In this document: positions 7,980 through 28,275 of the stretch, piece after piece
How the letters are laid out: every line of letters starts with the position of its first letter
Numbering within the stretch: the stretch's first letter is position 1
Source: Paremcibacter congregatus
GTDB taxonomy: Bacteria > Pseudomonadota > Alphaproteobacteria > Sphingomonadales > Emcibacteraceae
NCBI RefSeq assembly: GCF_006385135.1
Contig: NZ_CP041025.1
Location: 1,829,501 to 1,893,500 of the forward strand
Length of the DNA stretch: 64,000 nucleotides
Direction of reading: 5' to 3'
The notes under the pieces: model-generated
What the model was told of the DNA's origin: nothing
The model's database searches: none
The model's input: the letters and a program-made list of their open reading frames with translations, nothing else
Position numbers and translations under genes: made by a program

Positions 7980-8007
7980 ATTTACCATAATATAAATTGT
8001 GTCGTCA
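7980..8007 (+). other. attL: dif-like Xer site, left junction of prophage 1
   Basis: The left arm ATTTACCATAA and centre TATAAA match the XerD half of dif (reverse complement of E. coli dif, recalled from memory: arm ATTTAACATAA, centre TATACA). The right arm TTGTGTCGTCA is degenerate against the XerC arm TTATGCGCACC. Reading: the left arm is host DNA and the right arm belongs to phage 1. The stop codon of the prophage 1 repressor (TAA, minus strand, 7982-7984) falls in the host-derived arm. Confidence 0.8.
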
Positions 8008-8386
8008 CTTGCGCTCCGTTTTTCTCACCAGCAAAGGCCGATCCTGAGCCGTCAAAATCGATGCTACCAAGGGACAGGTTACAGCCTAAAATTACACCCG
8101 CCGCATATTGTGGGAGCGATTTTAATAGTTTCTTAAATATCGGGACAGCTTCCGGAGTTTTAAATTCTGCTTCCCATAAATCTCTATGCAACAAGGCCAT
8201 ATCAGCGGGGACGTTTGCAAGGCTTGCAAGCTTTATCATTGCCGCTACGGAGGGTACGTCTGGACGATCTGGGTGCCTCCATTTTGCAACGTTTGCCATA
8301 TGCAGGCGTGTTGCAAGCTGTCTATCTGACTTCAATCCGTGAAGCTCTTTAGCTCGGTTCATATACCAATTTATATCTTGTTTCAT
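7982..8386 (-). CDS. Prophage 1 repressor-like regulator (DUF3693-like helix-turn-helix protein)
   Basis: A 134-residue protein with an N-terminal helix-turn-helix (SDRQLATRLHMANVAKWRHP, about residues 20-39) and a following helical domain, resembling DUF3693 regulators of filamentous and other small phages. It is about 45 percent identical by eye to the prophage 2 counterpart at 27811. It diverges from the early operon, the usual place of a lysogeny repressor. Its last codons cross the attachment site: in the excised circle the stop TAA becomes AAA, and the frame runs 25 codons further to a stop at 17816-17818. Repressor function is inferred from position. Confidence 0.75.
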   Translation of the reverse strand: MKQDINWYMNRAKELHGLKSDRQLATRLHMANVAKWRHPDRPDVPSVAAMIKLASLANVPADMALLHRDLWEAEFKTPEAVPIFKKLLKSLPQYAAGVILGCNLSLGSIDFDGSGSAFAGEKNGAQVTTQFILW

Positions 8387-8398
8387 AGCCAGACCTTT

Positions 8399-8414
8399 CT
8401 ACGTATGTACGTAA
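8399..8414. promoter_or_regulatory. TACGTA-type palindromic element ahead of repressor 1
   Basis: The 16-base sequence CTACGTATGTACGTAA lies 12 bases upstream of the repressor start codon. The same 16 bases precede the otherwise different repressor of prophage 2 (27781-27796, opposite strand). Longer versions of the motif recur at the early/late boundary of both phages. It is a candidate regulator-binding site. Confidence 0.5.
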
Positions 8415-8430
8415 TATCAAGAACACAGAG

Positions 8431-8497
8431 TATCAGCTTACTGATAACTGACAAGAAGCAATATTATCTTGACACCCTTAATGTAATGTGAATAAGG
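8431..8497 (+). promoter_or_regulatory. Prophage 1 early promoter with adjacent candidate operator
   Basis: The -35 box TTGACA (8469-8474), a 17-base spacer and ATAAGG as -10 (8492-8497) precede the early operon. Upstream of it, TATCAG and CTGATA (8431-8446) form a 6-base inverted repeat with a 4-base loop, a possible repressor site. This block shares nothing with the equivalent block of prophage 2 although the genes downstream are nearly identical. Confidence 0.55.
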
Positions 8498-8555
8498 TGC
8501 ATCCTGCTAACTGCTGAGAAGCATTTTGGTAAATTTGCACTTATATTCCTCCCTT

Positions 8556-8583
8556 GGGGCCTCTGTCCGGCCGGACATGCCCC
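8556..8583 (+). promoter_or_regulatory. GC-rich hairpin in early leader, conserved in both prophages
   Basis: A perfect 14-base palindrome TGTCCGGCCGGACA (8564-8577) is enclosed by GGGGC (8556-8560) and GCCCC (8579-8583). It lies about 30 bases before the first early gene. The same structure occurs at 27633-27660 in prophage 2. It could be an RNA leader structure, an attenuator, or a DNA structure used in replication or packaging. No run of T follows directly, so it is not a typical terminator. Confidence 0.5.
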
Positions 8584-8615
8584 GCACTTTTAGGGAGACA
8601 ACAAAAGGGAAGATC

Positions 8616-8816
8616 ATGGCTAAAGTAAAATTCTCCATAGACTTTGAATTTGATGAAGAGGAAAAAACATTTCATGTTTTTATTCCTTCTGCACCCGAAG
8701 GGATTTCTTGGAATGAGGAAGATATTCATGAAGCTTGTTCCAAGGCAATGACTGATTTTCCAGATGCACAGGATTGGGAGTTTTCGCTGTTTATTGATTT
8801 GGGAGATGAAGCATGA
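8616..8816 (+). CDS. Prophage 1 early protein, acidic, 66 residues
   Basis: A small acidic protein (MAKVKFSIDFEFDEEEKTF...), rich in Asp and Glu, with alternating strand-like residues. The start is ATG 8616 preceded by AAGGGAAG; an in-frame ATG upstream at 8526 lies before the leader hairpin and is less likely. It is the first gene of the early operon and identical in prophage 2. I do not recognise the family. Its acidity could suit a DNA-mimic or a protein-binding role, but nothing proves this. Confidence 0.75.
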   Translation: MAKVKFSIDFEFDEEEKTFHVFIPSAPEGISWNEEDIHEACSKAMTDFPDAQDWEFSLFIDLGDEA

Positions 8817-8962
8817 CCCGGATTTTTTGGATTACTTATGCGGCGTTGATTATTGCGGTTCTGATATTCGTTTCCGGCTGCTCCACCAAATTCAATGAAT
8901 GCCCGGAAATCCCCCAGTATCACGGCTGCTTTTACAAGGATTACCCGGAGTATCTGCCATGA
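8813..8962 (+). CDS. Prophage 1 small lipoprotein, 49 residues
   Basis: It begins with MTRIF, then a hydrophobic segment and a lipobox VSGC (Cys about residue 23), so a small inner- or outer-membrane lipoprotein is predicted. The mature part has further cysteines (NECPEI, HGCFYK). It overlaps both neighbours by ATGA. It is conserved in prophage 2 (27254-27403). It might act in superinfection exclusion or lysis; the early location favours the former, as inference only. Confidence 0.65.
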   Translation: MTRIFWITYAALIIAVLIFVSGCSTKFNECPEIPQYHGCFYKDYPEYLP

Positions 8963-9153
8963 GTAAGAAATACTGGCGGGATACCGTAGTAAAGCTTAAG
9001 GATCGTGACTGCAAAGCTAAAACCCTTACCAAAATAAGAGTGTTGTTAAATTCAGAAGCGGCAAAAACATACGATGGCTCACTTTCTGGCCCGCTTGGAC
9101 ACCCTAATGTTGAGGGCCTCTTTTTGCAGGTGAAGGAGATGGTGACGGAATGA
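8959..9153 (+). CDS. Prophage 1 early hypothetical protein, 64 residues
   Basis: A basic small protein (MSKKYWRDTVVKLKDRDCKA...) starting at ATG 8959, which overlaps the lipoprotein stop. It is almost identical in prophage 2 (27063-27257); one visible change is Gly to Ser near the end. It marks the last shared gene before the replication block diverges. I do not recognise the family. Confidence 0.7.
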   Translation: MSKKYWRDTVVKLKDRDCKAKTLTKIRVLLNSEAAKTYDGSLSGPLGHPNVEGLFLQVKEMVTE

Positions 9154-9485
9154 CCCTTGACCCTACAATTCTCACCTGTAATGAAAAACTTCTAAGACGC
9201 GCCGCCCGGCGTGATGTTCGCTTTGACAATCAGCTTGTGGTCTGGGCGAAAATTAAACACCTCTGGGAAATGTATGATTTCAGCATAGGCCAATGGCCCG
9301 CATATCTCGAAGCCAGCTATTTTTACGGCTGCATGTTGATGCGGGAAGGGGTGCAGGACGTACGTATAGGATTATTCCCTCACGCCGACAAAATCCCCCA
9401 GTCGCCACCCTTCGACCAGTCACCGGCCTTTCTCATGGGGATCGGTATTTTCCGCCCTTCCTACACACGTACGAAGGGTTTTTAA
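9150..9485 (+). CDS. Prophage 1-specific hypothetical protein, 111 residues
   Basis: A soluble protein of mixed composition starting MTLDPTILTC, coupled to the preceding gene by ATGA. It has no counterpart in prophage 2, where the same junction leads into a different membrane protein (26821-27066). It lies in the replication block ahead of Rep, so a link to replication is possible but unsupported by any motif I can see. Confidence 0.6.
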   Translation: MTLDPTILTCNEKLLRRAARRDVRFDNQLVVWAKIKHLWEMYDFSIGQWPAYLEASYFYGCMLMREGVQDVRIGLFPHADKIPQSPPFDQSPAFLMGIGIFRPSYTRTKGF

Positions 9486-9728
9486 ATGCGCCCAGAACTT
9501 AAACACAGTATTCAACTTGTGCAGGTCGCCATCGGCGAACATCCGCTATTCGACAATATCCCCCGGGATCAACAAATTCTGGCCCTAATCACATTGGCCG
9601 CAGGACTTGCAAGAAGTCATTCCGAAGAACTGCTTGCCAACCAGTCCAAAAATTCACGCATGAAGTGGGCAGACATGACCGTCAGGACTCTTGTCCCTGA
9701 TTTAGGCAACGGGGAGTCCGCGCAATGA
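9486..9728 (+). CDS. Prophage 1-specific hypothetical protein, 80 residues
   Basis: A small, probably helical protein (MRPELKHSIQLVQVAIGEHP...). It begins directly after the previous stop and ends overlapping a tiny membrane ORF. It is absent from prophage 2. I do not recognise the family. Confidence 0.6.
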   Translation: MRPELKHSIQLVQVAIGEHPLFDNIPRDQQILALITLAAGLARSHSEELLANQSKNSRMKWADMTVRTLVPDLGNGESAQ

Positions 9729-9793
9729 CTTTGATCATTCTAGGGGTGTTTCTGACGGTTTTAGGTTTTGCCGGGGTATGGGGGCAAAAATGA
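9725..9793 (+). CDS. Prophage 1 tiny membrane peptide, 22 residues
   Basis: The ORF MTLIILGVFLTVLGFAGVWG plus two residues is nearly all one transmembrane segment. It is coupled by ATGA to the gene before and to Rep after it. The prophage 2 protein at 26821-27066 begins with a similar hydrophobic stretch (MTLTMLILGTLGVILSILGI), which supports this as a real gene. Function unknown. Confidence 0.45.
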   Translation: MTLIILGVFLTVLGFAGVWGQK

Positions 9794-11070
9794 CAAATCC
9801 CTTGAAAGGTACGCAAGTAGAGTTGCCGCCCTTGTTTTTAAAGGATAATTTGGAACAGCTAAACGGCGCTCAAAAAAGGGACCGGCTTCGCACTGTGGCC
9901 GGGCAAATTTTAACCGGGGAACGGGTTTATAAATGCGGTCGCCACCGGATCGGGGCGATTGTCACAATTTCCGCCAGTTCGACCGGCGCTATGTTCAACG
10001 GCGTGGAGACTTGCGGCTCGATCTGGCATTGCCCCGTATGCGCCGAAAAAATTTCCAATAAACGGCGGCTTGAAGTGGCGGCGGCGATTGATGGCACAAA
10101 AGAGCGCCGGGGCGGTGTCTATATGCTGACACTCACAATGAAACATGCGCCATTCGATAAATGCGCCGCCTTGAAGGACGCTGTCGCGATGGCGTGGCGC
10201 AAGCTGCAAAATACGCGTGCCTGGCGCAGTATAAAAGAGGATCGCCAAATTTTCGGCACGATCCGGGCGCTGGAAATCACCCATGGCGCGAATGGGTGGC
10301 ATCCGCATTTACATATCCTGCTTCTGACCGAAAACGAGTTGTCAGAACATGAACAGGAAGAAACCCGTCTTGAGATTTTCGAGCAATGGGACAAAAAGAT
10401 TTATGCTTTAACCGGGCAATATTGCCATGCTGACGCTTGCGATTTACGGCCAACAAATTCCTCTGAATATCTCACCAAAGGTGCGGATCGCAAGGCCGGA
10501 AAAATGAAATGGGGCGCGGATCGCGAGATATCAAAGGCCAATATCAAGCAAGGGAAGGGCGGTAAAACGCCTTTTGAACTGCTGGAAGCGGCCTATTATG
10601 GCAATCGTCAAGCCGCCGCTATGTTCGCAGAGTATGCCGCCGCCTTCAAAGGGGCGCGACATATCACATGGACCCACGGCTTAAAAGATTTCTTTGAGAT
10701 TGCCGAAATTCTTGACGAAAAAATAGCAGAGATTAGCCCGGAAAAAGTCGCCGGACAGGATGAATTGCCATTCAGTGAAGATTTAAATATGCGGATGATC
10801 GTCGCTCTGGATCGCGGCACGTGGGCGGCGGTTTGTCGCCACAATTTACGCCCTGATCTGCTGGACGCAGCCTACAAGCATGGCCGCGCCGGTGTGGTGG
10901 GGCTGCTCGCGAAATATGGCCTTTCGGTCTGGCTGGGCACCGGTCACATTAACGAAGATCAGACGAATGCGCAGTTTTCAAATGACGGAAAAGTAATTTT
11001 CAATCGAGTGACAGCAAGGCCGCCCCGCCTTACGGAAATGCCTCACTCTGCAACACCATGGAAGGATTAA
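9790..11070 (+). CDS. HUH-endonuclease replication initiator Rep (rolling circle), type A
   Basis: This Rep should nick one strand at the replication origin and start rolling-circle replication. A zinc-type cysteine pair occurs in CGSIWHCPVC (residues 75-84), the metal-binding HUH motif in HPHLHILL (His 173 and 175), and the likely catalytic Tyr 227 in EYLTKG; this layout is typical of plasmid Rep proteins of the CxxC/HUH group. I choose ATG 9790 because it overlaps the upstream stop (ATGA); ATG 9778 is possible and gives 430 residues instead of 426. Prophage 2 has a different Rep in the same slot. Confidence 0.85.
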   Translation: MTNPLKGTQVELPPLFLKDNLEQLNGAQKRDRLRTVAGQILTGERVYKCGRHRIGAIVTISASSTGAMFNGVETCGSIWHCPVCAEKISNKRRLEVAAAIDGTKERRGGVYMLTLTMKHAPFDKCAALKDAVAMAWRKLQNTRAWRSIKEDRQIFGTIRALEITHGANGWHPHLHILLLTENELSEHEQEETRLEIFEQWDKKIYALTGQYCHADACDLRPTNSSEYLTKGADRKAGKMKWGADREISKANIKQGKGGKTPFELLEAAYYGNRQAAAMFAEYAAAFKGARHITWTHGLKDFFEIAEILDEKIAEISPEKVAGQDELPFSEDLNMRMIVALDRGTWAAVCRHNLRPDLLDAAYKHGRAGVVGLLAKYGLSVWLGTGHINEDQTNAQFSNDGKVIFNRVTARPPRLTEMPHSATPWKD

Positions 11071-11071
11071 A

Positions 11072-11374
11072 ATGACTGTCACAAACGAAGTCATCGGCCA
11101 CACCCAATGCCCGGATTGCAAGGCTAAAGTTGAACGCCGGATCAATAAGAACCGAAAAGTCTACTGGCACTGCGATGGTCGGGCCGATGATCCGCAGTGC
11201 AACGCCGCGTTTAAACATGGTGCGGCCATGTCGAGACGCTTGATTGCCGCCGCCGCAAAACCTCAACCCTCAAACGACAACGAACCACAGGAGACTATTG
11301 AACATGAAGAAGACAACACCGCCAGCAAACGACAATCTGGAAATTCAGGACGCGCCGGAATTGGATGTTTCTGA
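11072..11374 (+). CDS. Prophage 1 zinc-ribbon-like protein, 100 residues
   Basis: The N-terminal half has CPDC (residues 13-16) and a later HC...C set, which looks like a small zinc ribbon; the C-terminal tail is low-complexity and polar. The first 80 bases differ synonymously from the prophage 2 copy (24564-24866), then identity resumes, so one edge of the replication-block exchange lies here. It could be a DNA-binding accessory or late regulator. Confidence 0.7.
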   Translation: MTVTNEVIGHTQCPDCKAKVERRINKNRKVYWHCDGRADDPQCNAAFKHGAAMSRRLIAAAAKPQPSNDNEPQETIEHEEDNTASKRQSGNSGRAGIGCF

Positions 11375-11855
11375 GGCTGACATTCTCGAAGAAATAAACT
11401 GGGACAATTCGACAGATCACCTTGACGAGATCACGCCGGAACCCGCCGCCGAGGATATGCCAGAATATGACAAAATATCGGGGCTTGATAAATCCGAGAT
11501 ATTTTCAAAGGAGGAGTTTTTCTCCGATTTTTTCTGTCAGAATCTGGTGCTTGCAGAACATCTCACGGGTTTGGTGGGCGTTTCTGTGGTCGTGTCAGAT
11601 GGTAAACCGGAAACCGGTGCGCGCGAAACGTCTGATTTGCTCTATGAACAGTGCCAGAAATTCCGCTTCCTGCAATGGGCGATTAAACGAGACGCGGCAT
11701 GGGTAACAAATGTTCTTCCCGTCGTGATTTTCGTTAAGGGCAAGGCCGATATCGTCGGAATGCAGCTTACGGCGCGCCGGGAAGCGGCAAAACGGGCGTC
11801 ACAGCAACCACAGGCGGCGAATGACAACAACGCGCCTATGGAAGAGGCCGTATGA
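11304..11855 (+). CDS. Prophage 1 conserved hypothetical protein, 183 residues
   Basis: I start it at ATG 11304, which has AGGAG nine bases upstream; the frame is open from 11244 but that part is overprinted on the zinc-ribbon gene. The N-terminal half is strongly acidic and probably disordered. The C-terminal half is compact and mixed (QWAIKRDAAWVTNVLPVVIF). It overlaps the ATPase by ATGA, so it may act with packaging or membrane assembly. Family not recognised. The copy in prophage 2 (24083-24634) is nearly identical. Confidence 0.7.
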   Translation: MKKTTPPANDNLEIQDAPELDVSEADILEEINWDNSTDHLDEITPEPAAEDMPEYDKISGLDKSEIFSKEEFFSDFFCQNLVLAEHLTGLVGVSVVVSDGKPETGARETSDLLYEQCQKFRFLQWAIKRDAAWVTNVLPVVIFVKGKADIVGMQLTARREAAKRASQQPQAANDNNAPMEEAV

Positions 11856-12511
11856 GCCAGCCGGTTCGGATAGGCATCTATGGCGCGTCAGGGTCGGGCA
11901 AGTCAACACTTGCCCGACACCTGATCAAGTCCGAAAAGCGCCTTGTGGTTTTTGATCCTGCTTTAGACTGGTCAAAGGAATTTTCCAAAAAGCGTGGATG
12001 GGAGGTCTGTCACACCATTGCCGCCGTTCGGGCGGCGCTCAAAAAGAAATGGAAGACCAGCTTTAAAATCATATTTGTGCCTGAAGGCGGTAACGAGATC
12101 GAAGATTTAGACAAGTTGTCTGGTCTGATCCTGCAAGCCCAGGGCATTTATTTTAAGGGCGTCAAAAATCATCCGCAGATTACTTTCGTCGTCGATGAGA
12201 TGAATACTTGTTTCCCCGTTTCTGGATTGAAATCCAATTTTAAACAGTTCGGCAATGTGTGCTCTCGGGGCCGTCACTATGGGATTAATACGTACGGCCT
12301 GACGCAACGCATTGCAGAGGTTCACACCAAATGGCGCGGCAACTGTTCGGCTATGTACATATTGCGGCTGGCCTCTGCGCGGGATCGCGACACGGTGCAG
12401 GGTGAAATCGGGCGGGAATATAAAAACACCATTATGTCATTGCAAAACTTCGACTTTTTGCTGTTTGAACAAGCCAGCGTGGTGCAGGGCAGGGTACCGA
12501 AACCAAAATAA
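11852..12511 (+). CDS. Packaging ATPase, FtsK/HerA-type (PM2 P9-like; also Zot-like)
   Basis: A 219-residue P-loop NTPase with Walker A GASGSGKST (residues 11-19), Walker B TFVVDE (111-116) and a downstream TQR (151-153) as in FtsK/HerA ATPases. Tailless membrane-containing phages use such ATPases to pump DNA into the capsid. Size and place, immediately before the capsid block, match PM2 P9. Zot of filamentous phages belongs to the same broad group, so the fold alone does not decide the phage type. The prophage 2 copy is at 23427-24086. Confidence 0.82.
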   Translation: MSQPVRIGIYGASGSGKSTLARHLIKSEKRLVVFDPALDWSKEFSKKRGWEVCHTIAAVRAALKKKWKTSFKIIFVPEGGNEIEDLDKLSGLILQAQGIYFKGVKNHPQITFVVDEMNTCFPVSGLKSNFKQFGNVCSRGRHYGINTYGLTQRIAEVHTKWRGNCSAMYILRLASARDRDTVQGEIGREYKNTIMSLQNFDFLLFEQASVVQGRVPKPK

Positions 12512-12530
12512 TTTAAAATCGTGAATTTTC

Positions 12531-12557
12531 TTACGTACCTACATGTACGTACGTAGG
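12531..12557. promoter_or_regulatory. TACGTA cluster at early/late boundary, prophage 1
   Basis: Repeated TACGTA units form an imperfect palindrome around CATG, directly after the ATPase gene. The equivalent cluster of prophage 2 lies at 23381-23407. It shares its core with the element ahead of the repressor genes, so one regulator could control both places. Confidence 0.45.
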
Positions 12558-12596
12558 AAATCAGCCATTTGCCACCATCATTAAAATCATGCGTAA

Positions 12597-12629
12597 TAGG
12601 TCTACAGGGTAACTTGTGGACCTATTTTT
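12597..12629 (+). terminator. Intrinsic terminator separating early and late genes, prophage 1
   Basis: TAGGTCTACA and TGTGGACCTA form a 10-base stem (one G-U pair) around the loop GGGTAACT, followed by five T. It ends the replication/packaging operon before the capsid genes, implying a separate late promoter or antitermination. It is conserved in prophage 2. Confidence 0.75.
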
Positions 12630-12737
12630 ATGAAACTGAATATGAACAATTTTTACACGACTGTACTGGCCGGGCTGACGCTTTACGTCATACAAAAGTG
12701 GTTAAGAGAAAGAGAGAAAAATGAACAACCAGATTAA
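12630..12737 (+). CDS. Prophage 1 small membrane protein, 35 residues
   Basis: The ORF encodes one hydrophobic segment (YTTVLAGLTLYVI) followed by a basic-acidic tail. The ATG at 12630 sits on the terminator T-run and has no visible ribosome site; ATG 12642 is an alternative. It is conserved in prophage 2 and overlaps the next small gene. It may be a minor membrane protein of the virion, or not translated at all. Confidence 0.4.
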   Translation: MKLNMNNFYTTVLAGLTLYVIQKWLREREKNEQPD

Positions 12738-12843
12738 GGGCGTCCTGTTTACTGTCGCCGCTATCATTGCTGCCGGGGTTCTCCTGCAATATGGCAAAGA
12801 CATGCCGATCATCAAAGATGCGCACCAAGGTTTTGGCGGCTAA
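12721..12843 (+). CDS. Prophage 1 small membrane protein, 40 residues
   Basis: It starts at ATG 12721 with a purine-rich ribosome site (AGAGAAAGAGAG). The hydrophobic stretch VLFTVAAIIAAGVLLQY is followed by a charged tail ending in GFGG. It lies directly before the capsid gene, and a small integral protein of the virion inner membrane is the likely role, as in PM2. The prophage 2 copy is at 23095-23217. Confidence 0.65.
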   Translation: MNNQIKGVLFTVAAIIAAGVLLQYGKDMPIIKDAHQGFGG

Positions 12844-12869
12844 TTTTAACGTGAAGAGAAAGGGTTAAT

Positions 12870-13715
12870 ATGCCCCAAGCTATTCGAATTGTCGAACCGG
12901 TCATGAATTCCTTCAGCGGCGTTGTCTCTGGTGGTCGTGCGGTTTTGGACGTTGATGTAATCGGCACCTACTACGGCAACATTTTGCATCATTCTTTCGG
13001 CGCGGTTCCGGTCCCCGCCACCAAGGCCAATTATATCACCAATGTGAAAAAAGTTGAAGTTTATCTAGGTGGAACGGTTCAAATGGAACTAACGCCCACC
13101 GAGATTATTTCAATGAATGAAGAAAAAGGCATCCCATGGAAAGACGGCATTTTGCCGCTGTTTTTCGCACAGCCGGACAGCCTGACGGCTATCGGCGAGG
13201 ACGGGACCAGCTGGGGCATGGCGGATATCAACAATTTCCAGATTGTTGTAACCTTTAATGCCGTGGTTAGCCCTTTGTTGTCGGCGTCTCGTATCTGGAG
13301 AAATGCCAACATCACCAACGGTGAAATCATCACAACGGACCGTGTCACGGTCAACTGTGCCGGTCTGGCTAAAAAAGTGGTCAATATCGAGTTTGAACTG
13401 GGGCGCGTGTTCAATGCGATTTACGCCTTCAGTGATAAAATTCTCGGTGTGAAGGCCTATGTTGGACAGGAGAAAATCTGTGACGCGTCAAAGGACACGC
13501 TTGATTTCCTCCGTGAAACCGCGGGCTATGCGCCTCAGTCTGATATCTTCGTCATGTCCGGTAAGCAGTTGACCGCGCGTTACACAGACGTGATCAATGG
13601 CCGAAATCCGATTGACCCCAACAAACCCCATAAACTGCGTCTCGAGTTTGAGTATGACGCCGGGGTGGTGGATCACGACTTGATCATTGAGCAGGTCGGT
13701 ATCAGAAAGGCTTAA
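12870..13715 (+). CDS. Major capsid protein, probable double jelly-roll (PM2 P2-like)
   Basis: A 281-residue, beta-rich protein without membrane segments, strongly translated from AGAAAGGG. Comparing from memory with PM2 P2 (269 residues), I see the same order of blocks: N-terminal GNS/GGR strand, NVKKVEVYLGG, GILPLFFAQPD, a FQIVVTFNA strand, PLLSASR, and in the second half GVKAYVGQEK, a TLDFLRETAGY helix and a C-terminal LRLEFEYDAG strand. This supports two jelly rolls but was not computed. The prophage 2 copy (22205-23050) has the same length with a few substitutions. Confidence 0.72.
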   Translation: MPQAIRIVEPVMNSFSGVVSGGRAVLDVDVIGTYYGNILHHSFGAVPVPATKANYITNVKKVEVYLGGTVQMELTPTEIISMNEEKGIPWKDGILPLFFAQPDSLTAIGEDGTSWGMADINNFQIVVTFNAVVSPLLSASRIWRNANITNGEIITTDRVTVNCAGLAKKVVNIEFELGRVFNAIYAFSDKILGVKAYVGQEKICDASKDTLDFLRETAGYAPQSDIFVMSGKQLTARYTDVINGRNPIDPNKPHKLRLEFEYDAGVVDHDLIIEQVGIRKA

Positions 13716-13717
13716 TC

Positions 13718-14002
13718 ATGGCTGAAGAAGCAAGCGTTGAAAGCTATAGCGCCGGGGGTTTTTTTGGTGATCTGGTAAATGCTGCGGGAAACCTTGGCAG
13801 CAAATACCTAGACTTCAAATGGTCATCTAATCAACTGGATGAAGAGCGGCGACTGGCGGCACAGTATAACGCCGCTGTCACCAATCAGGCAATCGCGGAC
13901 ACACCACGGCCTGAAAGTCAAAATTCTGATCTGGTGAAATATGGCCTGTTTGCCTTTGCCGGGTTTGCGGCTCTCTTGATCATGGTAAAGGCAATCAAAT
14001 AA
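13718..14002 (+). CDS. Prophage 1 virion membrane protein candidate, 94 residues
   Basis: It has an N-terminal GGFFGDLVNAAGNLGSKYLDFK segment that looks amphipathic, a polar middle, and a C-terminal transmembrane segment (GLFAFAGFAALLIMV). It starts 2 bases after the capsid stop and its stop overlaps the next start. A structural role in the inner membrane is inferred from position. The prophage 2 copy is at 21918-22202. Confidence 0.65.
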   Translation: MAEEASVESYSAGGFFGDLVNAAGNLGSKYLDFKWSSNQLDEERRLAAQYNAAVTNQAIADTPRPESQNSDLVKYGLFAFAGFAALLIMVKAIK

Positions 14003-14196
14003 TGGTTGCCTCTTTACCACCTCTAAACGTTGCGGGCGGCACTGCGGGGCCGTCCGAGGCGCGGGGGCATAATAGCTTTTCATTCAACACGGGTGCTTTC
14101 GGAACTGAGCCAGCAAGCAATAAACTTATTGGCCTCATTCTTCCAGTTGGCGCTCTGGCGGCGGCGGGTTTTATCATATGGCGGCTATTGAAATAA
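14002..14196 (+). CDS. Prophage 1 virion membrane protein candidate, 64 residues
   Basis: A polar Gly/Ser/Asn-rich N-terminal half is followed by one transmembrane segment near the C-terminus (LIGLILPVGALAAAGFIIW). The N-terminal half varies between the two prophages (ASLPPLNVAGG against APIPKLSVSGG) while the remainder is constant. Function unknown; probably structural. Confidence 0.62.
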   Translation: MVASLPPLNVAGGTAGPSEARGHNSFSFNTGAFGTEPASNKLIGLILPVGALAAAGFIIWRLLK

Positions 14197-14594
14197 AAAA
14201 TATCGGTGCCCTGGACGAGCGGGCAAAATCTGATTTTAAGGATTTCTCCCATAACGGCACAGCCAGCTTTTATCGCCGTGAAGTCGTGGCTGGGCGCTTA
14301 TCTGTTTTTTCAGTTCTGATCGACGGCTTGCGGGTCGGCTCACTGGCTTTAAGGCGCGAGGTTCAACCACATGGCTCTGAGATGGTAATTGTGGCTGGTG
14401 GCGGCTCTTATACCGGTCAACGGCTGGTTCCTTTGATGCTTGAATTTCTGGAGGGCTTGGCGGGGCGGAACGGGGAACAGTCTGTACGTTTCCACACAAA
14501 GCGTGAACCGCTGGCGCTGGTTGCACAGGGGCGCGGTTACATTGAAATTGATGACGGCGATCCCGACGAAATCACCATGAGGAAGGTCTTGTAA
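14178..14594 (+). CDS. Prophage 1 GNAT-like protein, 138 residues
   Basis: A mixed alpha/beta protein whose order of strands and helices, with the SLALRREVQPHGSEMVIVAG core and the end LVAQGRGYIEI, resembles GCN5-type acetyltransferases found in some phages. I cannot see a clear acetyl-CoA loop, so activity is uncertain. It overlaps the membrane protein gene by 19 bases and sits among structural genes. The prophage 2 copy at 21326-21742 differs at several N-terminal residues. Confidence 0.55.
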   Translation: MAAIEIKNIGALDERAKSDFKDFSHNGTASFYRREVVAGRLSVFSVLIDGLRVGSLALRREVQPHGSEMVIVAGGGSYTGQRLVPLMLEFLEGLAGRNGEQSVRFHTKREPLALVAQGRGYIEIDDGDPDEITMRKVL

Positions 14595-14596
14595 TA

Positions 14597-15064
14597 ATGG
14601 GCGGTAAATCATCCAGCCGTAACAGCACAACGTCCGGTCAATATGACAACCGTGTCATCAATGAAAATGATTATGAGATTGACAACTCAGTCCGGAATGA
14701 GTTCGACTATGAAATTGACAACTCAGTCCGGAATGAGTTCGACTATGAAATTGATAACTCAGTCCGTAATGACATCGACTATGAAATTGATAGCTCAACC
14801 CGGAATGATCTGGGGGATGGTGCCATTCAGGCGGGCGGAAATGTCTCGGTGACTTCTGTTGATGCGGGCGTCGTTGAGGATGCTTTTAACTTTGCAGAAA
14901 ATATCGCTGGGGAAAGTATCTCCGCCTCAAGCTCGGCCTTGTCTCAGGCGTTCAATTCCACGGCGGGCGGTGTCATTGATGCGGGGAAAGACCTCCTGAA
15001 ATATGGCGGCATTGGCTTGGCCGCACTGCTTTTAATCATGACTTATATAAACAGGAACAAATAA
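14597..15064 (+). CDS. Prophage 1 repeat-containing membrane-anchored protein, 155 residues
   Basis: After a polar N-terminus come four tandem 12-residue repeats of the type FDYEIDNSVRNE, then a Val/Ala/Ser-rich region and a C-terminal transmembrane segment (GIGLAALLLIMTYI) with a basic tail. The repeat section should form a regular rod or beta structure projecting from a membrane. Prophage 2 has five repeats, so copy number varies. It is placed between structural genes and a spike candidate, suggesting a stalk or pentameric vertex protein. Confidence 0.65.
   Translation: MGGKSSSRNSTTSGQYDNRVINENDYEIDNSVRNEFDYEIDNSVRNEFDYEIDNSVRNDIDYEIDSSTRNDLGDGAIQAGGNVSVTSVDAGVVEDAFNFAENIAGESISASSSALSQAFNSTAGGVIDAGKDLLKYGGIGLAALLLIMTYINRNK
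14667..14810 (+). repeat. Four tandem 36-base coding repeats (12 codons each)
   Basis: The units encode xDYEIDNSVRNx with growing divergence toward the 3' end (the last unit reads IDYEIDSSTRND). They lie in frame in the gene at 14597-15064. Confidence 0.85.
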
Positions 15065-15065
15065 A

Positions 15066-15707
15066 ATGTTACATGAAGGCACACTACAGCCGGGCGAGTG
15101 GCGAACAATTGGTGCCGGGGCTCACAGCCAGATTTTTATAATGGAATGTGACCTCGAATATATTGAGGTGAAGTTTAAAAATTTATCTAAATTCCGCATG
15201 TACCGGGGCGTCCCCGCGAAATATAATTTTGATAATGTTGATATTTCAAATCCTCATTCCACGCCTATTGACTATAAGATATACACCGCCCCGGCTGGAA
15301 TGGAGTTTCAAGAAGGTAGGAGTATCGAAACAGGCACTTCAATTATCGGAACAGTTGGAACAGTTGGGCGTCCGTTATCTGATGAGGGGGGGAGTGTTGC
15401 GTCGATTGGATCTGTAAATTTAGAGTTAGAGCGGACAGGCGTGTATACGGAGGTCGTCGTTTCTAAAGCTGCAAATACAAATGGTATCTTTTTAAGAACC
15501 GCACTCATTCAACAGTCTGTCTCTGGAAATATCAATATTTTGTCAGACCGCGCCGCTGGTGGATCAACAATTTTATTGTTATCCCAGCTCGCAGGCGATG
15601 CGTTGCGGCTCAGTCGTGAAATTTTTATCCCCTCGGGCAATGGTCTTACTCTTTATTTCGGGGGGGGCGCAACCGCGTATATTAACGTGTCATATGATGT
15701 TCTATAG
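15066..15707 (+). CDS. Prophage 1 spike/receptor-binding candidate, 213 residues
   Basis: A soluble, beta-rich protein without signal or membrane segment, with Gly/Ser/Thr-rich strands throughout (TGTSIIGTVGTVGRP, FGGGATAYINVSYDVL). Its place after the repeat protein and before lysis genes fits a vertex or receptor-binding protein. It is identical to the prophage 2 copy apart from one visible residue (A to V near residue 18). No family recognised. Confidence 0.5.
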   Translation: MLHEGTLQPGEWRTIGAGAHSQIFIMECDLEYIEVKFKNLSKFRMYRGVPAKYNFDNVDISNPHSTPIDYKIYTAPAGMEFQEGRSIETGTSIIGTVGTVGRPLSDEGGSVASIGSVNLELERTGVYTEVVVSKAANTNGIFLRTALIQQSVSGNINILSDRAAGGSTILLLSQLAGDALRLSREIFIPSGNGLTLYFGGGATAYINVSYDVL

Positions 15708-16161
15708 CGTCAAAAATATTTTACTCATAGCCGTTGTCGGCGCAGGCGTTGGAAGGTATTTCTATATGAAAAACACGATTGATCTTATGGCCCGGACCAT
15801 GTGGGGCGAGGGGCGCAACCAAGGAAAAGCCGGAATGCTTGCCATTGGCAACGTGATTAAAAACCGGGCGGATCGGGGCGGCTGGTTTGGTCGGTCGGTG
15901 GTCGATGTGATCACCAAGGATATGCAATTTTCAGCTTGGAATATTGGCGACCCGAACCGGGCTAAAATGATGGCCGTGACGGATAAAGACCCACAGTTTG
16001 CGGAAGCTTTGCGATTGGCCAATCAGATCATGACGGGGAAGGTCGCCGATAACACGGGCGGCGCGGATCATTATCACACGGCGGCAATTTTGCCATATTG
16101 GGCGAGTGACATGCCCAAAACCGCCATTGTCGGCGATCACATTTTTTACAGGAGTGCATAA
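15697..16161 (+). CDS. Cell-wall hydrolase, SleB-like (Hydrolase_2), membrane-anchored
   Basis: A phage lysin or entry enzyme that cleaves peptidoglycan. The hydrophobic N-terminal segment ILLIAVVGAGVGRYF is a signal anchor. The catalytic domain begins at MARTMWGEGRNQGKAGMLA, where the Glu of GEGRN is the expected active residue, with the NVIKNRA motif following. ATG 15697 (or 15694) overlaps the preceding stop; a start at 15766 would remove the anchor. The gene opens the lysis cassette. Confidence 0.82.
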   Translation: MFYSVKNILLIAVVGAGVGRYFYMKNTIDLMARTMWGEGRNQGKAGMLAIGNVIKNRADRGGWFGRSVVDVITKDMQFSAWNIGDPNRAKMMAVTDKDPQFAEALRLANQIMTGKVADNTGGADHYHTAAILPYWASDMPKTAIVGDHIFYRSA

Positions 16162-16162
16162 T

Positions 16163-16333
16163 ATGCCTTTATTGTTGGTTGGTGGCATTGCGTCACTTTT
16201 GGGCTTTGGCGGCGGCTGGTTCGCGGCTGACGGGACGAAATCACTCATTCGGGTGGTCATGGTCGGCGGTGTGGCCTATTGGCTGCTAGCGACACCTTCC
16301 GGCAAGTCTATGCTGAAGAAGGTAACCGGCTAA
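16163..16333 (+). CDS. Prophage 1 lysis-cassette membrane protein, 56 residues
   Basis: It has two hydrophobic stretches (LLLVGGIASLLGFGGGWF and VVMVGGVAYWLLA) and a basic C-terminus. It is preceded by AGGAG. It lies between hydrolase and holin genes, so a role in lysis or in the virion membrane is likely. It is identical in prophage 2. Confidence 0.62.
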   Translation: MPLLLVGGIASLLGFGGGWFAADGTKSLIRVVMVGGVAYWLLATPSGKSMLKKVTG

Positions 16334-16467
16334 TGGATCAAATGCTATTATCAATTCTGTCAGGTGGAGCTGACTTTGCGACATACGGAATTTTATTCCT
16401 GTTCTGGCGCACAGATAAGCGGCTGACCGCCTTGGAGCACCACACAAGGATACACAAGGCATGTTAG
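16333..16467 (+). CDS. Prophage 1 small membrane protein, 44 residues
   Basis: One transmembrane segment (FATYGILFLFW) is followed by a charged tail (RTDKRLTALEHHTRIHKAC). The start overlaps the previous stop and the end overlaps the holin start. It could be a spanin-like or antiholin component; no motif confirms either. Confidence 0.58.
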   Translation: MDQMLLSILSGGADFATYGILFLFWRTDKRLTALEHHTRIHKAC

Positions 16468-16835
16468 GGCTTGATAAAATTCTCGGTGGTATTTTCGGCG
16501 TCATTGACAAGGTGGTACCAGACAAAGACCTTGCACAGAAAATCAAGTTCGATGTCCAGTCTCAGGCGCATTCTGGCGAGATGAAAGAGCTTGACGCCGC
16601 CATGAAAATCATCGTCGCGGAAGCCCAGGGCGGCGCATGGCTGCAACGCTCATGGCGTCCCTTGACGATGTTAACCTTCACCGGCCTGATTGTCGCTAAG
16701 TGGCTTGGCATGACGGCTCCGGGGATCACAGAGCAAATTGAACTTGAACTTTTCGCAATCATTAAAATTGGCCTTGGTGGGTATGTCTTTGGACGTTCCG
16801 CCGAAAAGGTCGCAACCGCATGGAAGGCAAAATAA
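16461..16835 (+). CDS. Holin of the 3TM/GTA holin type
   Basis: A 124-residue protein with a charged helical N-terminal part (VVPDKDLAQKIKFDVQ), the WLQRSWRPLTML motif and two hydrophobic segments (LTFTGLIVAKWLGM; LFAIIKIGLGGYVFGRSAEK). This pattern matches 3TM holins of gene transfer agents and small phages. It should form lesions that let the hydrolase reach the cell wall. The prophage 2 copy differs at two visible residues. Confidence 0.8.
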   Translation: MLGLDKILGGIFGVIDKVVPDKDLAQKIKFDVQSQAHSGEMKELDAAMKIIVAEAQGGAWLQRSWRPLTMLTFTGLIVAKWLGMTAPGITEQIELELFAIIKIGLGGYVFGRSAEKVATAWKAK

Positions 16836-16961
16836 ATGGCACGACTGAGACGACAGAAATTTATTCGAGAAGAGAAACAGGAAGCCGCCAAGACTGTCCG
16901 CAAACGTGGCGCTGATGGCAAGTTTATCAAAGAAGAGGAGAATACCGATGTACAAGCCTAA
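16836..16961 (+). CDS. Prophage 1 small basic protein, 41 residues
   Basis: A highly charged peptide (MARLRRQKFIREEKQEAAK...), starting directly after the holin stop and overlapping the next gene. No hydrophobic segment is present. It is identical in prophage 2 apart from possible single changes. It may bind DNA or be a minor virion component; unknown family. Confidence 0.5.
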   Translation: MARLRRQKFIREEKQEAAKTVRKRGADGKFIKEEENTDVQA

Positions 16962-17259: not shown

Positions 17260-17313
17260 AATAAGGAGATCCTCGCGGATTTTTGTAATTATCTTGCGTA
17301 GGTAAAATTGAAA

Positions 17314-17341
17314 AGGGTGTCCTTTAGGACGCTCTTTTTTT
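17314..17341. terminator. Bidirectional terminator between late genes and regulator, prophage 1
   Basis: The stem AGGGTGTCC pairs with GGACGCTCT (two G-U pairs) around TTTA and is followed by seven T; on the other strand the stem is followed by TTTT. It separates the plus-strand late operon from the minus-strand regulator gene. The equivalent at 18541-18572 has changed bases that keep the pairing. Confidence 0.75.
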
Positions 17342-17798
17342 ATGCTGCGGGGTTCAGGGGGACGTAATAGCCAGAAATGTGCAGTTTCCGAATAACCTGA
17401 TCCCGCCGATCTCCACGCTTCAGCATACCTTTTGCCAATTCAATCTTGCGCCGGGTCACATTATGATCAATCTCTTTTAAAATGGTGAGATCAGTCTGAA
17501 ATTTACGGATATACCGGGCTATGGTTTTGGGGTGATAATCAAGAACAGTTGCGATATGTTCAATACTGTAACCAGCCTGATATCGTGTCATGATAGCGCG
17601 TTGAAGTTTTAATTTTTGGAGCATTAGTTTTTCGGATTTTCGCAAATCTCGTTGCTCCGTCTTTTTTACTTGCACTTCACGTTGTTCGGCATCAACGGCC
17701 AGCCTTTCGACTGACTGCGCAAGGTTATTGATTAGTTTAGTTAACTGACGTAAGTCTCGGGCCGGCAAATGGTTTAATGTATTCAAGAGAGTACGCAT
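17340..17798 (-). CDS. Prophage 1 regulator with two helix-turn-helix segments, 152 residues
   Basis: The N-terminal half is a basic helical/coiled region (KTEQRDLRKSEKLMLQK). A first helix-turn-helix lies at YSIEHIATVLDYHPKTIARY and a second is possible near RRDQVIRKLHISGYYV. It has GGGGGAAAG as ribosome site. In the circular phage it would lie 17 bases downstream of the extended repressor reading frame, forming one leftward operon. Prophage 2 has a diverged protein of similar design at 18054. Role unknown; late or copy control is plausible. Confidence 0.65.
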   Translation of the reverse strand: MRTLLNTLNHLPARDLRQLTKLINNLAQSVERLAVDAEQREVQVKKTEQRDLRKSEKLMLQKLKLQRAIMTRYQAGYSIEHIATVLDYHPKTIARYIRKFQTDLTILKEIDHNVTRRKIELAKGMLKRGDRRDQVIRKLHISGYYVPLNPAA

Positions 17799-17814
17799 AA
17801 CTTTCCCCCATAAA

Positions 17815-17842
17815 ATTATATTGGATAGTATACAGGTGTAAA
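17815..17842 (-). promoter_or_regulatory. Promoter for prophage 1 regulator
   Basis: On the minus strand TTTACA (17837-17842), a 16-base spacer and a consensus TATAAT (17815-17820) precede the gene start at 17798. In the circular phage this promoter lies inside the 3' extension of the repressor gene. Confidence 0.6.
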
Positions 17843-17888
17843 TAAACCATGAATAGCGGAACGTATGCGCGCACCAAGCCCGCTAATA

Positions 17889-17916
17889 ATTTTCCATAAT
17901 ATAAATTATGCGCACT
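17889..17916 (+). other. Central dif-like site between the prophages; likely the active dif
   Basis: The arm ATTTTCCATAA, centre TATAAA and arm TTATGCGCACT match E. coli dif (reverse complement, recalled) at 24 of 28 positions. It is the only one of the three sites with two good arms. It is best read as a hybrid: left arm from phage 1, right arm from phage 2. It would be the site available for chromosome dimer resolution in this double lysogen. Confidence 0.8.
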
Positions 17917-18000
17917 CCGGAACTCTCTATCTCGTTTGTATAAAAGCCTTATTAACTTACTCTCCCCCGGCAAGTTGTTCGGTTTACGTTCTATTTACGG

Positions 18001-18047
18001 TTGATCCCTATGCTCCCCAACACTAAAATAACCTGTGTTTTGGGGAG
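18001..18047 (+). promoter_or_regulatory. Promoter and ribosome-site-masking hairpin for prophage 2 regulator
   Basis: TTGATC (18001-18006), a 17-base spacer and TAAAAT (18024-18029) make a candidate promoter. CTCCCCAA (18013-18020) pairs with TTGGGGAG (18040-18047), extended by CAC/GTG across a two-base bulge. The right arm holds the ribosome site GGGGAG of the TTG start at 18054. RNA starting at the local promoter lacks the left arm, whereas RNA arriving from upstream contains the full hairpin. Confidence 0.55.
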
Positions 18048-18053
18048 TAACAA

Positions 18054-18557
18054 TTGAGTAGAATTGATCCAGATATTCCCGGCCTGCCGTTCAGAAATTT
18101 TGAACATTCAGGCCGGGAACTTTTTTCTCAGGTAAATAAAATTCCACCTGAGGCCGCAAAATCCGTAGCAGAATTATTTGAAAAAATTGCAGGTGAATTA
18201 CATGAAGTTCATCAGACATTTTTACATCAAAAAGCTATAACAGCGGAAAGCAAAAAGAATATATTCAAACTCAAACAATTGCCTGTACAGGTGCAGGAAT
18301 GCCTCAACGTGGGCATGAGTTTTGAAGAAGCCGTATCTCACCTCAAGACCACCACAGGCGCGCCGCAAACAACCATTTATTCATACTGGTTAAGGCATAT
18401 CAAGCAACTCGAAAAAGATGCTTTTCAGGTGCGAGATAGGCAGGTTTGGGAAATGTACAATGAAGGATTGCCAGATCAAGAAATTGCCGATTTGTCGGAG
18501 CTGTCAAAGCGCCAAGTTCAGAGAATTATCCGCGAACATAAAAAAAGAGCGCCCTGA
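18054..18557 (+). CDS. Prophage 2 regulator with two helix-turn-helix segments, 167 residues
   Basis: It starts with TTG 18054 after GGGGAG. A helical N-terminal half is followed by a helix-turn-helix around MSFEEAVSHLKTTTGAPQTT and a second near the end (LPDQEIADLSELSKRQVQRI). Design and position match the prophage 1 regulator at 17340, with little direct identity. In the circular phage it lies 49 bases after the extended repressor frame. Its stop codon lies in the shared terminator. Function unknown. Confidence 0.62.
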   Translation: MSRIDPDIPGLPFRNFEHSGRELFSQVNKIPPEAAKSVAELFEKIAGELHEVHQTFLHQKAITAESKKNIFKLKQLPVQVQECLNVGMSFEEAVSHLKTTTGAPQTTIYSYWLRHIKQLEKDAFQVRDRQVWEMYNEGLPDQEIADLSELSKRQVQRIIREHKKRAP

Positions 18558-18572
18558 AGGACACCCTTTTCA
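18541..18572. terminator. Bidirectional terminator, prophage 2
   Basis: This is the counterpart of 17314-17341, read on the other strand: AGAGCGCCC and the ACACCCT side pair around a short loop with A/T runs on both sides. Two base changes against the prophage 1 copy keep the pairing. Confidence 0.7.
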
Positions 18573-18621
18573 ATTTTACCTACGCAAGATAATTACAAAA
18601 ATCCGCGAGGATCTCCTTATT

Positions 18622-19718: not shown

Positions 19719-19719
19719 A

Positions 19720-20815: not shown

Positions 20816-20816
20816 T

Positions 20817-22202: not shown

Positions 22203-22204
22203 GA

Positions 22205-23380: not shown

Positions 23381-23407
23381 CCTACGTACGTACCTATATG
23401 TACGTAA
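23381..23407. promoter_or_regulatory. TACGTA cluster at early/late boundary, prophage 2
   Basis: Tandem TACGTA units around a TATATG centre, the counterpart of 12531-12557 with a slightly different middle. The outer units are conserved. Confidence 0.45.
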
Positions 23408-24881: not shown

Positions 24882-26213
24882 TTAATTCAGCGCGGGGGCT
24901 ATCGGGTTTTGTGGGTAGGTCGGGGTGATATTTGGTAAAAGTTCCCCTTGCCGTCTGTGGCCGGATTTTTTGCGAGTTTTCTTTCTCGACTGCCGGACAG
25001 TTGTCGTAGTTGTGTGCCTCATAGAGGCCGTACGGCGCGCCCAAATGTCACGGGCCTTGCCGATCAAGTCTTTAATACCTTCCCGCTCCACAAGACGATC
25101 TATGTCGCCATCAAAATTATGAACGACCAAACACGGCTCGAATTGATTGCTAAATTTAGGTGACGGGTTCGTTATCGCCATGAGAACGTTATCAACGTCC
25201 CCGCCAGACTCGTCAGAGCGCGCCCTAGTGCCCGGTTTCGCTTTTTCTATAACACGCCACTGCCAATCCGTTTCCGCCTCTGTGGTGGCCTCCGTGAGTC
25301 CCTTAGGCGGCAATTTCACCAGCTTCATTTTATTGTCGTTCAATTCTTTGCGGAAAGCCCGGATTTCTCCGAGCGGATGAAAGAATTTCAGGCGGAATGT
25401 CTGGTGAAACAATTCGGCAAGCTCTGGATCGGTCAGTGCGTTAAATTCAGAGGGCTTGAAAACATACTTCACGCATTCCTGTACGTTTTTGATTTTGCTG
25501 TCATGCAGGTAGCCTTTAGGGAATTGTGACGCGCACCACTTCATAAAAGCCAGCCACTTTTGAGGCCCGAGTTTCTTTGTCGCTTTGATCAGCACATGGG
25601 AATGCATATTCAGCTGAGGCTCATCCCCTTCCCGCTTGATCGTGTTTTCAATATTGTAATAGACCAGCTCAACGCCAGCCTCTTTGACCTTCTCATGTGA
25701 CCCGAATTTTGAAATCAGGCGGGTAAACGTCTTGTGGGCTTCCCGATACTCGTTCAACGGAACCCATCCGTTAGAGATGACCAGCATCCGAAGTTGATTT
25801 TTATTAGCGTTGTCGGCGAAGTATTTTACGTGACGGGAGATATCATGAATGTTTTTAGACTGCATGACAGGAATGATGTTTGTATTGCGATAAGAAATTA
25901 CCTTCTCAACAACGCCCGTGCAAATACCAATAGTAGACGTCTGTCCTTCGATCTTGGCCTTGATCCCCTGCCCTTCAAGCCGCTGTGCAATCGCTTCAGA
26001 TTGAGATTTTAAAGTATTGCCCTGGGCTTCTGATTTGGACCAGTCGTCTTGGGAGATTTCATAGCCGATAGTGTCCCGCCATAGTTCCGGAACCGTCACC
26101 ATGCTCAGGCGGGAAGCCCCTTTAAGCCGACCAACGCTAAAACCAAAATTTAAATCCCCGATCAGATTTTGACCGGAGATTTTGCTTTTGTAATGGGCAG
26201 CTACTTCACTCAT
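24882..26213 (-). CDS. HUH-endonuclease replication initiator Rep, type B (unlike the prophage 1 Rep)
   Basis: A 443-residue protein in the same slot as the prophage 1 Rep but without visible sequence similarity. The HUH motif is MHSHVLI (His 204 and 206) and the likely catalytic Tyr 250 lies in CVKYVFK. It lacks the CxxC zinc motif of the other Rep. A basic, poorly ordered C-terminal tail (RKKTRKKSGHRR) follows. The start overlaps the upstream stop (ATGA). Rolling-circle initiation is inferred from the HUH/Tyr layout. Confidence 0.78.
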   Translation of the reverse strand: MSEVAAHYKSKISGQNLIGDLNFGFSVGRLKGASRLSMVTVPELWRDTIGYEISQDDWSKSEAQGNTLKSQSEAIAQRLEGQGIKAKIEGQTSTIGICTGVVEKVISYRNTNIIPVMQSKNIHDISRHVKYFADNANKNQLRMLVISNGWVPLNEYREAHKTFTRLISKFGSHEKVKEAGVELVYYNIENTIKREGDEPQLNMHSHVLIKATKKLGPQKWLAFMKWCASQFPKGYLHDSKIKNVQECVKYVFKPSEFNALTDPELAELFHQTFRLKFFHPLGEIRAFRKELNDNKMKLVKLPPKGLTEATTEAETDWQWRVIEKAKPGTRARSDESGGDVDNVLMAITNPSPKFSNQFEPCLVVHNFDGDIDRLVEREGIKDLIGKARDIWARRTASMRHTTTTTVRQSRKKTRKKSGHRRQGELLPNITPTYPQNPIAPALN

Positions 26214-27673: not shown

Positions 27674-27755
27674 TGTTAAGCGTCATTTAACACTTAATCT
27701 TATATTCATATGTAGTTCAGGAAGTCAACTATAAAACGTTAAGTGTCGTTTAACA
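27674..27755 (-). promoter_or_regulatory. Prophage 2 early promoter flanked by two operator copies
   Basis: On the minus strand TTGACT (27723-27728), an 18-base spacer and TATAAG (27699-27704) form the early promoter. Two 19-base copies of an inverted repeat lie on its two sides: TGTTAAGCGTCATTTAACA (27674-27692) and CGTTAAGTGTCGTTTAACA (27737-27755), each with GTTAA/TTAAC half sites. These are strong candidates for repressor 2 operators. Prophage 1 has none of them. Confidence 0.65.
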
Positions 27756-27780: not shown

Positions 27781-27796
27781 TTACGTACATACGTAG
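27781..27796. promoter_or_regulatory. TACGTA-type element ahead of repressor 2
   Basis: Reverse complement of the 16 bases at 8399-8414, 14 bases before the repressor start. It is conserved although repressors and operators around it are not. Confidence 0.5.
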
Positions 27797-27810
27797 AAAA
27801 GGAAATTAAA

Positions 27811-28275
27811 ATGAGACGTGATCTAAACTGGTATATGAACCAAGCAAAACAGCTTAATAATATTAAATCAGATAGAAAACTCGCAATTGAACTAAAGGTA
27901 TCAAGCGTTGGCTTATGGCGGCATCCTGAACGCCCTGTTGTTCCTGAACTATCTGTAATGGTGAGATTGGCCAAGATGGCGGGAGTGCCCGTAGAAATAG
28001 GCTTGATTGATCGTGATATTTGGGTAGCAGGCTTTAAAGCACCAGAGACCGTCCCTTTTTATGAAAAAATCCTCAAACAATTCCCCAAATATGCAGCGGC
28101 ATTATTAATGGCTTGTTTAGTATACAGCACTGATTTTGACACTGGTGTTATGGCAAAAGGGAACACAGGAGAAACAAACGGACACATGATAGTTCCTAAC
28201 TATAAATTATGCGCATATTGCCATGATCATACACTGGTCCGGGACAAGGTGATGTTGAATACGTCCTCCAGTTGA
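27811..28275 (+). CDS. Prophage 2 repressor-like regulator (DUF3693-like), C-terminus encoded by host DNA
   Basis: A 154-residue homologue of the prophage 1 repressor, with helix-turn-helix SDRKLAIELKVSSVGLWRHP. The start is ATG 27811 after AAAAGGAAA; the frame is open from 27778 but that part is the TACGTA element. The gene crosses the attachment site at 28190-28217: the last 19 codons are chromosomal sequence. In the excised circle the frame would instead continue 29 codons to a TGA at 18002-18004, giving 164 residues. Repressor function is inferred from its place next to operators. Confidence 0.75.
   Translation: MRRDLNWYMNQAKQLNNIKSDRKLAIELKVSSVGLWRHPERPVVPELSVMVRLAKMAGVPVEIGLIDRDIWVAGFKAPETVPFYEKILKQFPKYAAALLMACLVYSTDFDTGVMAKGNTGETNGHMIVPNYKLCAYCHDHTLVRDKVMLNTSSS
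28190..28217 (+). other. attR: dif-like Xer site, right junction of prophage 2
   Basis: The centre TATAAA and right arm TTATGCGCATA match the XerC half of dif. The left arm TAGTTCCTAAC is degenerate. Reading: the left arm is phage 2 DNA and the right arm is host DNA. Joined with the left arm of 7980-8007 it rebuilds the empty host site. Confidence 0.78.

Follow-up and report, generated by a model that had tools for sequence, protein, structure and literature searches.

The window, meaning the whole 64,000-nucleotide stretch of DNA that was analysed, carries two PM2-like (double-jelly-roll) prophages of about 10 kb, lying tail to tail at dif. Please refer to Table 1 for the coordinates of the features. 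The coat gene scored 2e-7 with Pfam P2_N (above the cut-off) and 1e-3 with P2_C (below the cut-off), and the packaging ATPase scored 4e-4 with Zot (at the cut-off) and matched the ATPase of phage Jorvik at 1e-9; with this P2-type coat and FtsK/Zot-type packaging ATPase, the elements belong to the Vinavirales. The general plan of that order was likewise found, with about 10 kb of DNA, divergent repressor and early operons followed by structural genes, and a gene order fitting the PM2 record; PM2 itself (Corticoviridae), with its leftward operon c-b-a, has the same genome plan, and its gp c weakly matches the repressor profile built here (E 0.0015). The lysin was assigned to Pfam Hydrolase_2 and the holin to GTA_holin_3TM. 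Among 20 ORFs scanned with Pfam, none contained a phage integrase domain and one, encoding a protein of 100 residues, contained a Zn-ribbon domain of a type known from recombinases. Reports describe PM2-like prophages as common among aquatic bacteria; to our knowledge, the choice of lysogeny by those without an integrase is poorly known.

Table 1. Features of the two prophages in order of position in the window (+, forward strand; -, reverse strand;., no strand).
Feature	Position	Strand	Remarks
Prophage 1	about 7980 to 17916	+	between dif-like sites
att of prophage 1, repressor end	7980..8007	-	TGACGACACAA-TTTATA-TTATGGTAAAT
Repressor R1, prophage form	7982..8386	-	134 aa; CI-like HTH, hydrophobic segment; ORF crosses att core
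TACGTA element common to both prophages	8396..8414	.	TTTCTACGTATGTACGTAA, 19 bp, directly upstream of R1
Operator A of prophage 1	8442..8460	.	predicted; TGATAACTGACAAGAAGCA
Early promoter of prophage 1	8469..8497	+	TTGACA...ATAAGG, read by eye
Operator B of prophage 1	8505..8523	.	predicted; TGCTAACTGCTGAGAAGCA; spacing to operator A, 63 bp
Early leader and first early genes	8544..9155	+	99.7% identical to prophage 2
Rep of prophage 1	9778..11070	+	Pfam Rep_1; unrelated to prophage 2 counterpart
Zn-ribbon protein	11072..11374	+	candidate late activator; identical in both prophages
TACGTA repeat cluster, late leader of prophage 1	12532..12551	+	
Double-jelly-roll coat protein	12870..13715	+	Pfam P2_N, P2_C; marks phage as PM2-like
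Terminal HTH gene of prophage 1	17340..17798	-	no similarity to prophage 2 terminal gene
R1 tail, phage-encoded, circular form	17816..17893	-	KIISGLGARIRSAIHGLFTPVYYPI, then stop; parted from R1 by integration
Central att	17889..17916	-	full dif; AGTGCGCATAA-TTTATA-TTATGGAAAAT
Prophage 2	about 17889 to 28217	-	between dif-like sites
R2 tail, phage-encoded, circular form	17915..18004	+	LRNSLSRLYKSLINLLSPGKLFGLRSIYG, then stop
Terminal HTH gene of prophage 2	18054..18557	+	unrelated to 17340-17798
TACGTA repeat cluster, late leader of prophage 2	23383..23406	-	
Putative Rep of prophage 2	24882..26213	-	assigned from its position; 62% to relative L007, without Pfam match
Operator B of prophage 2	27674..27692	.	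predicted; TGTTAAATGACGCTTAACA, written in early direction
Early promoter of prophage 2	27699..27728	-	TTGACT...TATAAG, read by eye
Operator A of prophage 2	27737..27755	.	predicted; TGTTAAACGACACTTAACG, 63 bp from operator B
TACGTA element, prophage 2 copy	27781..27799	.	TTTCTACGTATGTACGTAA, 19 bp
Repressor R2, prophage form	27811..28275	+	154 aa; last 19 aa host-encoded
att of prophage 2, repressor end	28190..28217	-	TATGCGCATAA-TTTATA-GTTAGGAACTA

The three dif-like sites all have one orientation, and the 19-base dif core is matched exactly nowhere in the chromosome but at the central one. At R1 the XerC arm (phage side) is degenerate and the XerD arm (host side) is good, while at R2 the XerC arm (host side) is good and the XerD arm (phage side) is degenerate, indicating that the two phages use opposite arms; both repressors therefore face outward and an intact dif remains between the prophages. 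As in XerCD/dif-integrating (IMEX-type) elements, the attP sites are dif-like and a full dif is regenerated after integration, and the two temperate phages presumably integrated at dif through the XerCD recombinases of the host.

Comparison of the two prophages using Blast gave 99.7% identity over 8544-9155 and 92-98% identity over 11071-17350; the repressor/operator region, the Rep region and the two terminal genes yielded no match. The exchanged immunity block that had been proposed in the preliminary description is real and was correctly placed, as identity sets in sharply at 8544 in prophage 1 and 27672 in prophage 2 with diverged sequence upstream, and the early leaders downstream are near-identical as described (100% to about 9110; 2 mismatches in 612 bp). 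To call the phages otherwise near-identical was, however, too strong, since neither the terminal genes nor the Rep region (about 9156 to 11070) show any similarity between them. The Rep genes and their neighbours form a second exchanged block (9156-11070 versus about 24700-27060), unrelated between the prophages. Further repressors were found by a profile search of genomes and an ATPase search, and their loci (L numbers) were then taken; no useful match was returned when the coat, R1 and L085 sequences were searched against phage records, the coat in viral contigs, or repressor patterns in genome and viral contigs. In the relative L007, an R1-type repressor occurs alongside a Rep of the prophage 2 type, and replication and immunity modules therefore assort independently. 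Duplication of a single prophage with later diversification of its immunity region in place would explain the common site and the high identity of the structural genes, but was rejected as extremely improbable: the Rep and terminal genes are unrelated, opposite attP arms are used, the identity boundaries are sharp, and the two repressor types occur apart from each other in L007 and L009.

R1 and R2 belong to the CI-like HTH family PHROG 638, and their profile matches solved HTH proteins (best E 3e-4), with the P22 C2 repressor at 0.3; from fold, position and divergent orientation we infer that both act as repressors. Their identity is 43%, close to the 45 percent estimated previously, the presumed recognition-helix residues differ (ANVAKWR versus SSVGLWR), and the hydrophobic segment is marginal in both (KD 1.39 and 1.20, respectively). 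In each intergenic region, a TTGAC-type early promoter is flanked by two operator-like 19-bp copies at a distance of exactly 63 bp from each other, and none of 60 dinucleotide shuffles yielded as good a pair. Neither early promoter was listed by a consensus promoter scan, and both were recognised by eye through the conserved TTGAC. With few departures, the pattern TGnTA-N9-TAnCA holds across both prophages, L007 and L009, the two relatives having the same operator plan with spacings of 58 and 60 bp (sites TGCTAGGCAGCAAGTAGCA in L007 and TGCTACGGTCAGCGTAGCA in L009; shuffles matched the pair in 3/60 and 0/60 cases, respectively); in L008, L044 and L045 the pair was not seen. When one mismatch was allowed, a scan of both prophages and their edges found the four proposed operators and four other places, the latter maybe by chance. 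The operators had initially been held to be unrelated, which is ruled out by the one layout common to both regions and the two relatives; the regions are homologous, matching at 77 of 132 aligned positions compared with 54 ± 9 (maximum 70) for shuffles, and the predicted operators of the two prophages are variants of one site.

The divergence affects repressor and operators alike, the early genes beside them have remained identical, and two phages with near-identical stretches coexist in one chromosome. Because operator bases and presumed recognition-helix residues differ, heteroimmunity is likely, though not certain, and the two operator-repressor pairs would give mostly separate immunity; some cross-binding may occur, since half-site form, spacing and position are common to both sets of operators. 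It is unlikely that the phages are not heteroimmune, with each repressor acting on both sets of operators and the exchange, or drift, having left specificity unchanged: the common half-site TGnTA, the 63-bp spacing, the same promoter position and the 58% aligned identity all favour such cross-repression, but the inner operator bases and the presumed recognition-helix residues differ and both phages lysogenised one cell. Heteroimmunity offers a simple reason for the presence of two near-identical phages at one dif, namely that they differ in the module that would set immunity and att arm use. Comparable alternatives are found in the filamentous RSM phages, in which two alternative repressor/regulatory regions occur in otherwise similar phages with matching upstream sequence (PMC4471427), although these have a serine integrase and belong to a different phage family.

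The TACGTA element was indeed present in both upstream regions; it is 19 bp long rather than the 16 bases reported and is the longest word common to the two diverged regions but not their sole likeness, the rest being homologous. Each prophage has one copy of the 16-base word, and the 4.19-Mb chromosome has no others. TACGTA pairs within 14 bp occur at five places in this genome; four of them belong to the two prophages, each of which has one such place upstream of its repressor and one in its late leader, with the same orientation relative to transcription. In L007 a TACGTA element lies upstream of the repressor and a similar stretch in the late leader. A role as repressor operator was considered for the element and rejected, since it recurs in both late leaders; its presence there makes it probable that a late activator common to the two phages, and not the repressors, binds the box. 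The Zn-ribbon protein shows a weak match (E 0.006) to P14 of PM2, in whose record P13 and P14 are annotated for late regulation, and is a candidate for reading the TACGTA box in both phages.

When the sides of each prophage were joined at the common core, attP was found inside the 3' end of both repressor genes. In the circular form each repressor gains a phage-encoded tail of 25-29 residues, which integration swaps for a stop or for host codons: R1 runs from ...TTQFILW into its tail in the circle and stops immediately in the chromosome, on a TAA in the host-side XerD arm, and R2 ends in its own tail in the circle and in host-encoded residues in the chromosome. As read from the sequence, the repressor gene thus has two coding versions, a circular (infecting) one with the phage tail and an integrated one with a stop or host codons. 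In the circle the terminal HTH gene lies on the repressor strand and follows the tail stop at a distance of 17 nt in prophage 1 and 49 nt in prophage 2, and operators, repressor, attP and terminal gene therefore form one contiguous exchanged block. The limits first given for the exchange were accordingly too narrow, although the exchange itself stands. It is integration alone that cuts this block open, separating the terminal HTH gene from the repressor gene.

Twelve elements, comprising the two prophages described here and ten from other genomes, could be closed at a common core (P1, P2, L007, L008, L009, L029, L031, L044, L045, L046 with L010, L057 and L090); L046/L010 spans two contigs of one genome and its pairing was inferred, and L031 has only a short core word in common. 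The repressor ORF crosses the att core in 12/12, at codon 114-142 and once at 161; both orientations of attP are found, but its location in the 3' end of the repressor gene is constant. Circular tails are 16-39 residues long (mean 30 versus 16 for shuffles) with a mean charge of +3.9, compared with +0.9 for shuffles and +0.8 for the prophage (host-side) tails; 0/2000 shuffles were as extreme in charge or minimum length, although the relatedness of the elements makes these P values optimistic. Stops per first 25 codons averaged 0.08 in the tail frame, 1.6 and 2.2 in the other frames and 2.0 on the host side, and we therefore take the tail to be coding in the circular form, a claim that leaves its role aside. 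With stops read through, in-frame charge exceeded that of both other frames in 8/12 (Wilcoxon p 0.015 versus the better frame, again optimistic for related elements). The tails have no common motif, and those of L009 and L057 are plainly hydrophobic, not cationic. In the closest pair, L044/L045, the tails are homologous and of equal length, a 1-nt shift at the core being offset just after it, an agreement of frame that has a 1-in-3 chance after an indel; strong codon-level selection was looked for in this pair and not found (dN/dS about 0.58, few sites), and any purifying selection on its tail may be weak. Att-crossing is not universal, as a second class (L030, L032, L033, L043, L089 and L091) and PM2 have shorter repressors ending before att. 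Most relatives whose short repressors lack a clear hydrophobic segment (L030, L032, L033, L043 and PM2 = L014) have att just after the stop, which suggests that the hydrophobic segment and the att-split tail go together. In L090 the repressor continues across att into a second tail that resembles the first (RRTWRYYW versus RRVWRYYW), as if another phage end had integrated alongside.

Repressor genes containing attP are known from other systems. In mycobacteriophage BPs, integration removes about 30 C-terminal residues from a repressor whose ORF contains attP, and the viral form, longer by 33 residues, is degraded while the prophage form is active (PMC4557955). Here too attP lies inside the repressor ORF and the predicted product differs between virus and prophage; BPs, however, encodes an integrase and its viral form has an ssrA-like degron, whereas there is no integrase here and no such motif was found at the tail ends, which read PVYYPI in R1 and RSIYG in R2 and differ in the relatives too. 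The filamentous phage XacF1 integrates by XerCD/dif at an attP inside ORF12, which integration splits, and its prophage is destabilised by loss of most of ORF12 (PMC5666396). XacF1 ORF12 matches the repressor profile obtained here at E 1e-13 and has an HTH, a hydrophobic segment, att and a hydrophobic/basic tail, and its published behaviour fits the repressor-attP cassette plan. RSS0 ORF13 is another published regulator gene with attP-dif inside (PMC4471427), ORF5 of inovirus PSH1 has the same layout and appears to read through att, and the regulators of Vibrio inoviruses appear to do likewise. In the record of inovirus VEJ (L097) att is annotated directly after a shortened regulator (ORF98); the shortening comes from an internal stop ahead of att and is not shared by the relatives of this regulator. 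A literature search on VGJ ORF154 yielded nothing useful. XacF1 and RSS0 are ssDNA filamentous phages of another viral realm, in contrast to the double-jelly-roll phages described here.

Among PM2-like phages, the dif-like site of PM2 is flanked by gp c and gp a, with about 80 bp separating it from the stop of gp c, and in Jorvik attP is annotated as intergenic, whereas here both sites lie inside the repressor gene. The accessible portions of the papers on Jorvik and NO16 describe temperate PM2-like phages with dif-type integration and contain no mention of an att-split repressor (PMC10589892, PMC9966536), and no description of XerCD combined with integration-dependent immunity was found for PM2-like phages in the open-access literature searched. 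Within that literature, the attP-crossing repressor is a new result for PM2-like phages, its inovirus version (XacF1 ORF12) having already been published.

On balance, we favour an explanation in which one cassette, comprising the operator pair, repressor, attP and terminal HTH gene, was exchanged between the phages, its repressor depending on integration and the TACGTA box serving a late activator. The change of tail would make repressor behaviour depend on integration: by analogy with BPs and XacF1, the prophage form would probably hold lysogeny, and the viral form may be weaker, unstable or membrane-held through its extra hydrophobic or cationic segment. We propose only tentatively that the repressor-attP cassette is such a switch in an XerCD/dif version; if so, the chromosome-dimer resolution system of the host would decide when the phage falls silent. 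A plainer account, somewhat doubtful but to be taken seriously, is that heteroimmunity arose by module exchange alone; att would then simply fall within the 3' end of a leftward-operon gene, and nothing would follow from the altered tail. Swapped immunity regions beside a conserved leader are ordinary in temperate phages, several relatives and PM2 have att just downstream of the repressor stop, and the dN/dS on one tail pair is weak; an inconsequential tail is, however, hard to reconcile with tails that are open in 12/12 and mostly cationic, unlike the other frames and the host sides, or with a layout that is found again in inoviruses and for both orientations of attP. Extending the favoured explanation, it is conceivable, if rather speculative, that a portable repressor-attP cassette of filamentous ssDNA and tailless dsDNA phages makes host XerCD a lysogeny switch, in which integration at dif would remove a membrane-active tail, disconnect a second regulator and so convert the membrane-held viral form to a stable prophage form, and in which exchange of the whole cassette would change immunity and attachment together. 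Were this true, the same cassette would serve two unrelated viral realms.

Two repeat differences between the prophages were also observed. A 13-bp direct repeat, ATTAAACGTTAAA, lies at 23068-23098, directly 5' of the prophage 2 coat gene, and is absent from prophage 1. In a gene of the structural region, a 36-bp tandem repeat is present in 3.8 copies in prophage 1 (14672-14808) and 4.9 copies in prophage 2 (21072-21254), the products being 155 and 169 residues long, respectively.
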